Part shown: piece by piece, positions 846 through 4,365 of the stretch
How the letters are laid out: every line of letters starts with the position of its first letter
How positions within the stretch are numbered: position 1 is the stretch's first letter
Assembly: GCA_947632595.1 (NCBI GenBank)
Contig: CANRPY010000010.1
Span: forward strand, 1 to 43,932
Source: an uncultured Bacilli bacterium
GTDB taxonomy: Bacteria > Bacillota_I > Bacilli_A > RF39 > UBA660
Length of the DNA stretch: 43,932 bases
Direction: 5' to 3'
Made by a program: the position numbers and the translations under genes
The notes under the pieces: model-generated
What the model was told of the DNA's origin: nothing
Database searches by the model: none
The model's input: the letters and a program-made list of their open reading frames with translations, nothing else

Positions 846-859
846 TTCTTGACTTTTTT
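830..859 (+). terminator. intrinsic terminator of the HTH gene
   Basis: Perfect 8-bp stem (GTCAAGAA at 830-837, TTCTTGAC at 846-853), 8-base loop containing the stop codon, then six T. The 3' arm overlaps the -35 box of the next promoter. Confidence 0.85.
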
Positions 860-877
860 CTTTTTCTATATTATTCT
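849..877 (+). promoter_or_regulatory. promoter of the uracil operon leader
   Basis: TTGACT at 849-854, 17-base spacer, TATTCT at 872-877. Predicted transcript start is near 884, directly before the leader-peptide ribosome site AAGGTGA at 886-892. The -35 lies inside the 3' arm of the upstream terminator. Confidence 0.6.
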
Positions 878-897
878 TAATAAAGAAGGTGAAACGT

Positions 898-996
898 ATG
901 GGAATGGAAAGAAGTACACATAATATGATTCATCATCCAATTACTAGTGGACTTTTTTCTATTTCTTTTTTCTTTCTTGAAGAATCCTTGTTTTAG
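898..996 (+). CDS. putative leader peptide of the uracil operon
   Basis: A 32-codon ORF starting ATG at 898, five bases after AAGGTGA. It has no recognisable domain. Its second half is rich in Phe because it is read from a U-rich tract (951-978, 21 of 28 T). The stop codon TAG (994-996) lies in the loop and first 3' base of the terminator hairpin 979-1010, so a ribosome finishing this peptide would cover the 5' arm. This geometry matches the E. coli pyrBI leader, in which slow transcription through a U-rich tract at low UTP lets the ribosome catch up and block termination. It could also be a chance ORF; the ribosome site and stop placement argue against that. Confidence 0.55.
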   Translation: MGMERSTHNMIHHPITSGLFSISFFFLEESLF

Positions 997-1010
997 GATT
1001 CTTCTTTTTT
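979..1010 (+). terminator. attenuator terminator before the uracil permease gene
   Basis: Perfect 9-bp stem: GAAGAATCC at 979-987 and GGATTCTTC at 996-1004, loop 988-995, then six T at 1005-1010. It sits between the leader promoter and the permease start at 1045, so it must be read through for operon expression. I see no PyrR-type binding loop in the leader. Confidence 0.8.
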
Positions 1011-1044
1011 TATCGTTTTTCTTTCTAGAAAGTGAGGTTTTATT

Positions 1045-2493
1045 ATGAATGAGTCAAAGATGACTTACGACATTGAGGACATGCCACCTCTTGGGAAAAG
1101 CATAATTTTGGCATTTCAGCATTTATTTGCGATGTTTGGAGCAACAATATTAGTTCCTATCTTAGTAAATGCTGCAGCAGAATCTGAGGTATTAACGATT
1201 CCTGTTGCATTGGTTACTTCTGGAATAGGTACGTTGATCTACCTTATTTGTACTAAATTCAAGTCTCCTGTGTATTTAGGTAGTTCTTTTGCTTTTATCG
1301 TACCGATTGCTGCTGCTTATATGAAAGCAGGTATTGCAGGAGCTATGACTGGTATTATGGCTGTTGGTCTTCTTTATGTTGTTGTTGCAATCATTATTAA
1401 ATTTGTGGGGAAGGAATGGTTAAATAAGCTATTACCACCTGTTGTGATTGGACCTATGATTATGGTTATTGGATTAGGTCTTGCGCCTAACGCTATTTCG
1501 CAAATTGGACTTGCAGAAGGGTCTGCATTTGACTGGAAAGTCTTAGTGGTTGCGGTTGTTTCTTTCTTGGTTACAGCGTTTGTTATGACAAAAGCAAAAG
1601 GTTTCTTAAAAATTATTCCTTTCTTAATTGGAATTATTTCTGGATATGTTGTTGCTTGCTGTTTAGGTATGGTTGATTTTCAACCTGTTATGGATGCGAA
1701 ATTCTTTCAAATTCCTAAGTTTGTCATTCCTTTTAAAGATTATTCTTTAGAGTTTACGGCACTTGTTACTATCTTACCAGTTGCTTTGGTTACTTTATGT
1801 GAACATATTGGAGATCATACTTCTCTTAGTCATATTATTGGTAGAGATTTAATACGTGATCCTGGACTTGATCGTACATTAATGGGAGATGGAATTGCTA
1901 CTTTTGTAGCAGGATTATTAGGTGGACCTGCTAATACGACTTATGGTGAAAATACTAGTGTTGTTGGAATGACAAAAGTAGCTTCTGTAAAAGTTATTGG
2001 TCTTGCTGCTATCTTTGCAATTATTATTGGATTCCTTGGTAAATTTACGGCACTTGTCTCTACCATACCTGATGCTGTTCTTGGAGGAGTTTCTTTACTA
2101 CTTTATGGATTTATCGCAGTAAATGGACTTAAAGTATTAATCAAAAATCAAATTAATTTTGAAGAAAATAAAAATGTTGTGGTTGCTTCTTCTATGTTAG
2201 TCATAGGTTTAGGAGGTGCTGCTATATCTATTCTTTATAAAGATTTATCTCTTACGATTTCTGGTATGAGTTTAGCTGCTTTAGTTGGTATTCTTTTAAA
2301 TTTAGTTATTACTTCTGAAGAAGATAAAAAGAAAAAGATGTTAGTTGATGTAGATCTTTATCAAAAACTTAAAAATGAAATTAAGAGTGATGTTTTAAAA
2401 GAGTTAAAAGAAGATAAAAAGGTATCTACTAAGACTCCTATGATTGAAAAGAAACAAAGTACAAAGAAAAAACCGGAGGGTAAAAAGAAATGA
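1045..2493 (+). CDS. uraA: uracil permease (NCS2 family)
   Basis: 482 residues. A membrane transporter that imports uracil, probably with protons. The N-terminus has the family signature [14 protein letters not shown], and the middle has [18 protein letters not shown], the conserved substrate and ion region of NCS2 uracil carriers. Hydrophobic segments run along residues 20-425, about 14 as usual for the fold. After residue 425 there is an unusual lysine-rich cytoplasmic tail of about 55 residues, longer than in typical family members. The stop overlaps the upp start by 4 bases (ATGA), so translation is coupled to upp: import is tied to phosphoribosylation. Expression is likely controlled by the attenuator upstream. 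Xanthine permeases are the nearest alternative, but linkage to upp favours uracil. Confidence 0.95.
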
Positions 2494-3119
2494 AAAATGT
2501 GATTGAATCGAATCATCCTTTAATTGAACATAAATTATCTATTTTAAGAGATAAGAATACTTCTACGAAGGAGTTTCGAGAACTTGTTAAAGAAATTAGT
2601 ATGATTCTTTGTTATGAAGCGATGAGAGATGCCAAACTTGATGAAATTCAAATAGAGACTCCTATTAAGAAGATGAAAACGCATCGTCTTAATGAAGATC
2701 ATTATGCTTTTATTCCTATTTTAAGAGCTGGACTTGGTATGCTAGATGGTGTTATTAGTGTTCTTCCTACTGCTAAAGTAGGGCATATTGGAATGTATCG
2801 TGATGAGACTACGTATGAACCTATTAACTATTTCTTTAAAGTTCCTGATGGTATTGAAAATAGAGAGGTCTTCTTATTAGATCCTATGCTTGCAACTGGA
2901 GGAAGTGCAATAGATGCCATAGATCTTCTAAAAAAGAAGGGAGTAGAGAAGATTAAGTTCTTATGTATTATCTCTGCCCCAGAGGGCTTAAAACAGGTAA
3001 ATAAAGCATATCCTGATGTTCCTATCTATACTGCTTGTATTGATGAGAAATTAAATGAGAATAAATATATTGTTCCAGGATTAGGAGATGCTGGAGATCG
3101 AATTTTTGGAACAAAGTAA
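2490..3119 (+). CDS. upp: uracil phosphoribosyltransferase
   Basis: 209 residues, the normal length. Converts uracil and PRPP to UMP in the cytoplasm, the salvage step after uptake by the permease. The PRPP-binding loop is [10 protein letters not shown] at 131-140, and the uracil-binding C-terminal motif [14 protein letters not shown] ends the protein. The start ATG overlaps the permease stop; the ribosome site GGAGG lies in the last permease codons. A G-rich hairpin terminator follows the stop. Confidence 0.98.
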
Positions 3120-3959: not shown

Positions 3960-3987
3960 AGTAAGTCAAGTGAGGTGAATGAATCTT

Positions 3988-4365
3988 ATGAAGAAAGGAA
4001 TCCAATTATTACTTTTAGTACTTTGTCTTTTTTCGGTAACATTTGTATCTGCTAAAAAATATACTTGTGAGACTGTAGATGGTGCTTATTACGGTAAAGA
4101 TGGCAAAGAAGTTGATAAAGTACAATATGAGAAAGAATGTAGTACTCATCAATGTGAAATTGTTGGGGATACTTACTATGGTGCTGATGGAAAAAGTGTT
4201 AGTAGGGATACTTTTGAGAAAGAGTGTGATGCATCTGTTGTGTCAGAACTTCCTGATACTGGTAGTCACTTCTCTCCTACTGAGATCTTCTTTATGATTA
4301 TTGGTAGTATATTCTTACTTGGTGGTACTATTTTTACTGTTACATCTCGTTTATTACAAAATTAA
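3988..4365 (+). CDS. small LPDTG-type surface protein with two cysteine-bounded repeats
   Basis: 125 residues from ATG 3988. An upstream in-frame ATG at 3979 sits too close to the ribosome site AGGTGA (3973-3978). Residues 1-22 are a signal peptide with a long leucine-rich core. Residues 26-51 and 55-80 are two 26-residue repeats, each with one Cys near its start and one at its end 24 residues later, and a central YYG-DGK motif. A sortase-like LPDTG motif at 88-92 is followed by a hydrophobic segment (100-119) and a short tail with one Arg, so the protein is probably exported and either anchored to the wall or kept in the membrane. No sortase gene is in the window. Function unknown. Confidence 0.85.
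   Translation: MKKGIQLLLLVLCLFSVTFVSAKKYTCETVDGAYYGKDGKEVDKVQYEKECSTHQCEIVGDTYYGADGKSVSRDTFEKECDASVVSELPDTGSHFSPTEIFFMIIGSIFLLGGTIFTVTSRLLQN

Follow-up and report, generated by a model that had tools for sequence, protein, structure and literature searches.

In Bacillus subtilis the uracil genes are controlled by PyrR, and in the textbook enteric case, known experimentally in Escherichia coli, pyrBI attenuation relies on a ribosome running close behind RNA polymerase. How, then, is uracil uptake controlled in a member of the Bacilli in which PyrR is not detected? The window analyzed here, the whole stretch of 43,932 nucleotides, belongs to a 1.4-Mb, 51-contig assembly of the class Bacilli (95% complete) in which no pyrB, PyrR or rho reaches its cut-off, and it carries a uracil permease-upp operon. 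Since the genome has no detectable pyrB, this operon is likely its pyrimidine route. A preliminary description of the DNA proposed a pyrBI-like attenuator in front of the operon. The comparisons reported below support that reading at the level of sequence, and we give odds of about two in three that the leader is a pyrBI-type attenuator of transcription, coupled to translation, which would control uracil uptake and salvage.

Direct reading bears out the succession of parts that had been described, namely promoter, ribosome-binding site, 32-codon open reading frame (ORF), U-rich tract and terminator (Table 1). The operon downstream was also correctly named, as both genes are matched by family profiles: the permease scores above cut-off with TIGR00801 (NCS2), its best single match, NF007995 (uracil permease), lying below its own cut-off, and upp scores above cut-off with TIGR01091/NF001097. 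The product of the leader ORF in the window is MGMERSTHNMIHHPITSGLFSISFFFLEESLF.

Table 1. Coordinates of the leader and operon features in the window.
Feature	Positions	Strand	Details and basis
Promoter, sigma-A-type, TTGACT-N17-TATTCT	849..877	+	-35 box TTGACT 849-854, -10 box TATTCT 872-877; direct reading
Shine-Dalgarno of the leader ORF, SD-like AGAAGGTGA	884..892	+	direct reading
Leader ORF, pyrL-like	898..996	+	ATG 898 to TAG 994-996; 32 codons and TAG
Predicted 5' arm (purine-rich) of the hairpin within the ORF	900..915	+	pairs with 951-966; RNA folding
U-rich tract; would act as UTP-limited slow zone, also 3' arm of the predicted hairpin within the ORF	about 951..978	+	base profile, fold
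Intrinsic terminator	979..1011	+	perfect 10-bp stem 979-1004, then T7 1005-1011
Uracil permease (UraA/NCS2)	1045..2493	+	profile search
upp, uracil phosphoribosyltransferase	2490..3119	+	profile search

The -10 box stands 20 nt from the leader ATG, so that the predicted 5' untranslated region is only ~13 nt long. The stop codon of the ORF had been placed in the terminator loop, which is nearly right for the window, where the TAG spans the end of the loop and the first bases of the 3' arm; the usual site in relatives is the terminator foot, where most of their stops overlap the beginning of the stem, and the window is the exception. Its leader reads TTGAAG where the relatives have TTAGAAG; the stop at the foot is thus gone and reading continues to the TAG at the loop end. 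Upstream lies an HTH-like gene (78-854); its terminator, at 829-854, shares sequence with the -35 box of the leader promoter, and the same upstream gene end precedes the leader in several relatives.

The permease was used to search 59 genomes, which yielded 23 same-genus leaders readable in full, that of the window included; one further same-genus locus, broken off at a contig end, was left out. For every locus the leader start codon was chosen manually by a single rule, an ATG behind a Shine-Dalgarno site. All 23 leaders share one arrangement and order of parts: a promoter, a start codon with its frame open, a U-rich end to the ORF, and a terminator. A promoter of the form TTG[AC]-N17-TANN[CA]T is found 18-22 nt upstream of the leader ATG in every one of them (1.8 expected), always with a 17-bp spacer between the -35 and -10 boxes. 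This signal emerged from the position-specific test alone, a generic best-match promoter score being no higher than in shuffled sequences. The stop codon falls between -12 and +22 nt from the foot of the hairpin in 23/23 leaders. Dinucleotide shuffling of the ORF interior gives an expectation of 2.4, and the other two frames have stops near the foot in 0 and 2 leaders, respectively; the 23 leaders are related to one another, so that they do not amount to fully independent observations. The placement of frame and stop also extends beyond the genus, to 25 of 27 leaders (2.8 expected). The distance from the leader ATG to the terminator ranges from 55 to 127 nt.

One might suppose that the ORF arose by chance between the upstream terminator and the promoter region of the permease itself, in an AT-rich genome where promoter scores taken by themselves do not rise above background (24 sites found for 21.7 expected). 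The retention of frame, promoter and terminator in 23/23 leaders refutes this explanation, which we regard as scarcely credible. The alignment of related leaders that the preliminary description had put forward as a check gave the pattern it anticipated: frame, U-tract and hairpin are kept in all 23 genus leaders and in many other families while the peptide varies, and none of the 23 assessable same-genus leaders lacks the ORF.

The variation of the peptide bears on what the ORF is for. Median pairwise identity within the genus is 0.34, and comparison of the leader peptide with Pfam returned no match, PF08052 (PyrL) included. Both facts argue against a small functional peptide, for instance a membrane peptide, followed by an ordinary terminator, even though the C-terminal half is hydrophobic in most members. 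The base composition speaks against it as well, since the ORF has more T than its amino acids call for (z 8.4 over the last 11 codons, z 5.1 over the earlier ones), and we hold such a peptide to be very improbable. The same synonymous excess of T in the early codons counts against the attenuator reading also.

Along the ORF the T fraction climbs from about 0.2 at the start to 0.69 beside the terminator, with C near 0.1 throughout; in the last 40 nt of the 23 leaders T reaches 0.56 and C 0.12. As C stays near 0.1 while T rises, the enrichment is one of U and not of pyrimidines. The genes of the window average 0.285 T, with 57.9% purine on the sense strand, which sets the U-tract far from the coding norm. 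It is not universal, given that one group of genomes using genetic code 4 has merely 20-33% T in the last 40 nt.

Uracil genes of Bacillota are ordinarily governed by PyrR attenuation, and PyrR-bearing relatives do have loop motifs before the same permease, with the PyrR-binding element RF00515 over cut-off in two of them. Neither PyrR nor its RNA element is present here: RF00515 has no match in the window or in the rest of its genome, in agreement with the earlier remark that no PyrR-binding loop was seen, and no PyrR protein is found over cut-off in any of 36 genus genomes. PyrR control of the window leader, which the preliminary description had named as the finding that would overturn its reading, is thereby refuted and has next to no probability left. 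An Rfam search of the leader brought no riboswitch or other family near any cut-off.

The distribution of the architecture follows that of PyrR. With a fixed detector applied to 302 kb (the window and related loci), 43 matches were obtained, two loci being counted twice, all upstream of a uracil permease and none before any other gene; the whole 43.9-kb window holds a single match. In a class-wide sample of 198 genomes, from which 89 permease-type loci were read, pyrL-like leaders precede 18 of the 52 loci of genomes without PyrR and none of the 37 loci of genomes with it (Fisher 2e-5), whereas the PyrR loop motif shows the opposite distribution (0/52 and 32/37, respectively; Fisher 3e-19). 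The detector gave 0/89 false positives when run on reverse strands and 0.4/89 when run on shuffled sequences. The 18 leaders are spread over eight families. The 34 remaining permease loci of PyrR-less genomes score as neither type, some of them being other NCS2 genes or detector misses, and this tells against the attenuator reading. In genomes that read UGA as Trp, defined as those whose permease frame needs this reading, the ORF ends at the terminator in 13 of 14 cases once the T threshold is lifted, and the fourteenth does so by eye. Named records with pyrL-like leaders comprise gut metagenome-assembled genomes (MAGs) labelled Bacilli or Clostridia, Firmicutes bacterium ZOR0006 and an Atopostipes-labelled MAG contig; Streptococcus, Granulicatella and Erysipelothrix have PyrR-loop motifs in place of such a leader. 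Taken as an architecture (ORF, frame, promoter, U-enrichment, terminator, absence of PyrR and restriction to the permease), the leader is well supported.

Some loci in this survey deserve mention in their own right. The pyrL-like leader of the Atopostipes-labelled contig (L107, 1200-1475) may reflect a switch within its lineage or else a wrongly binned contig, as the Carnobacteriaceae-type loci of Desemzia, Atopococcus and Alkalibacterium carry PyrR-loop motifs. Five members of the window's genus have a pyrB that exceeds its cut-off, and in none of them does a pyrL-like leader stand before this gene. Other leaders, with no obvious short ORF, precede pyrB in the PyrR-less genomes L161, L162, L156 and L163; at least three of them have a terminator-like hairpin, and they possibly represent another pyrimidine-responsive attenuator. 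Leaders of other NCS2 permease genes (L249, L250) resemble purine-type riboswitches by eye.

RNA folding adds a second structure to the terminator. It predicts a long stem within the leader ORF of the window (Table 1) and an outer helix in which positions 884-889 of the Shine-Dalgarno pair with 972-977. Measured against shuffles that preserve the gradient from 5' purine to 3' U, the ORF hairpin has a median z of -3.06 in the genus, with 17 of 23 leaders below -2, and is weaker outside the genus (median z -1.4). The calculated median cost of opening the ribosome landing site is 4.5 kcal/mol before the U-tract is made and 14.7 kcal/mol after, and with a shuffled U-tract it is 8.1 kcal/mol versus the native 14.7 (p 5e-7). 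Compensatory base changes are few, double changes occurring in 7 of the 68 hairpin pairs examined across four subgroups, and for many pairs at least one member has lost the pairing; with so few compensatory changes the hairpin is treated as likely, not proven. The folding models thus favor an ORF hairpin with the U-tract as its 3' arm that is predicted to close over the leader ribosome site.

Such a hairpin followed by a terminator recalls the 1:2 and 3:4 pairings of codon-sensing attenuators of the trp/his type, in which 1:2, 2:3 and 3:4 hairpins are mutually exclusive. The 2:3 antiterminator signal is nil here (median z 0.0), the 5' halves of the leaders share no amino acid and have no early runs of regulatory codons, and their late Ser, Phe, Ile and Leu codons are the expected output of a U-rich sequence, all of which makes codon sensing most improbable. 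Leader-peptide attenuation does exist in bacilli, where His leader peptides precede hisS/hisZ (PMC2965389); these contain a stretch of His codons and act as classical amino-acid sensors, unlike the leader described here.

Returning to the pyrBI-type attenuator, we infer that ribosomes translate the leader, that UTP is the signal and that events follow the order outlined here. As polymerase departs from the promoter, the leader ribosome site would be exposed almost immediately. At high UTP, polymerase would pass the U-rich end of the ORF fast and the fresh U-tract would pair back onto the purine-rich 5' half and the leader ribosome site; with no ribosome near polymerase, the terminator would form and transcription would end before the permease. 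At low UTP, polymerase would be slowed in the U-tract, possibly aided by pause-promoting NusG, while a ribosome would load, trail polymerase and keep the ORF hairpin from closing. Once at the stop codon, at or in the terminator, this ribosome would block the stem and permease-upp would be transcribed. Given the 55-127 nt that separate ATG and terminator, termination is the expected default, and slow passage through the U-tract would switch the operon on.

Several published observations frame this scheme. In E. coli, termination was ~90% with a stop codon 28 bp upstream of a terminator and fell to <10% when that distance was shortened to 5 bp; terminators placed in the initial 100 bp of an E. 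coli gene remain functional, with the exception of short leaders in which pausing occurs (PMC4824070). Prevention of the pyrL terminator requires tight coupling across the leader (PMC5021804), and coupled RNA polymerase-ribosome complexes have been observed in cells of the mollicute Mycoplasma pneumoniae (PMC8116511). Ribosomes are outrun by polymerase in B. subtilis, a related member of the Bacillota (PMC13323073), which counts against the reading.

The NusG of the genome contains VVRNTPGVTGF (translated by eye), whose N and T we take, from its placement against B. subtilis NusG, to be the pausing residues. The motif TTNTTT is only moderately enriched, occurring in 22 of 23 leaders for 14.5 expected, a point against the reading. 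In B. subtilis, NusG pausing at TTNTTT needs particular N and T residues (PMC12288461).

A translation-coupled attenuator could also sense general translation capacity (ribosome supply, starvation or antibiotics) and not UTP, the U-tract being a structural arm or pause site. The tract is indeed the 3' arm of the ORF hairpin, its U-richness could stem from pairing with the purine-rich 5' half, and U is low in the code-4 group mentioned above. The occurrence of the architecture only before the uracil permease, and only in genomes lacking PyrR, nevertheless indicates a pyrimidine signal; moreover, U is enriched where C is not, and the U-tract persists in leaders whose ORF hairpin is weak. We therefore consider a sensor of translation capacity unlikely.

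The pyrBI-type reading can be set against known systems. With E. coli pyrBI (pyrL) the leader shares a pyrimidine gene, a short ORF with a Shine-Dalgarno, a U-rich stretch, translation overlapping an intrinsic terminator and the lack of a dedicated regulatory protein. It differs in the stop codon, which in E. coli pyrL lies past the terminator, 3 nt before pyrB, in contrast to the terminator foot or loop here, in its unrelated peptide, in its operon (permease-upp salvage as opposed to pyrBI biosynthesis) and in phylum. The ORF hairpin, significant in the genus, has z -0.8 in E. coli pyrL, where the corresponding values do not reach significance. The leader is accordingly pyrBI-like by design and is not classed with pyrBI by descent, on account of the unrelated peptide and the different stop geometry; the lack of a PF08052 match bears on descent and not on the mode of action, for which no conserved peptide is needed. 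PyrR attenuation (RF00515) of Bacillota pyr genes has the same target gene and the same on/off logic of the terminator but senses via a protein. The tlrB, vmlR and bmrCD leaders of B. subtilis likewise act by transcription attenuation, yet they answer antibiotics and not nucleotide supply.

No earlier report of a pyrL-like leader in Bacillota or mollicutes was found in the openly accessible literature. A new element here is the predicted ORF hairpin, which takes the U-tract as its 3' arm and covers the leader ribosome site. It is conceivable, although we propose it tentatively, that in PyrR-less Bacilli, code-4 mollicutes included, widespread protein-free UTP-sensing attenuators replace PyrR and work as a kinetic latch. 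The U-tract would then double as a UTP-limited slow zone and as the 3' arm shutting the leader ribosome site, a slow polymerase admitting the ribosome and a fast one excluding it; UTP sensing and the hairpin latch are both features that we infer. If this holds true, ribosome-coupled nucleotide sensing would have persisted or re-arisen in PyrR-less Bacilli, here in a rho-less genus, and these leaders would offer a compact natural probe of transcription-translation coupling for uncultured and mollicute lineages.

Two further observations concern the window. Its genes are strongly purine-rich though no rho exceeds the cut-off in the genome, unlike rho-less Bacilli, for which a weaker purine bias was reported (PMC13323073). 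At 3979-4365, the window encodes a small secreted-looking protein with an LPDTG end and a hydrophobic tail, just under the Pfam cut-off for an LPXTG anchor, in which a YYG-containing module is repeated twice.
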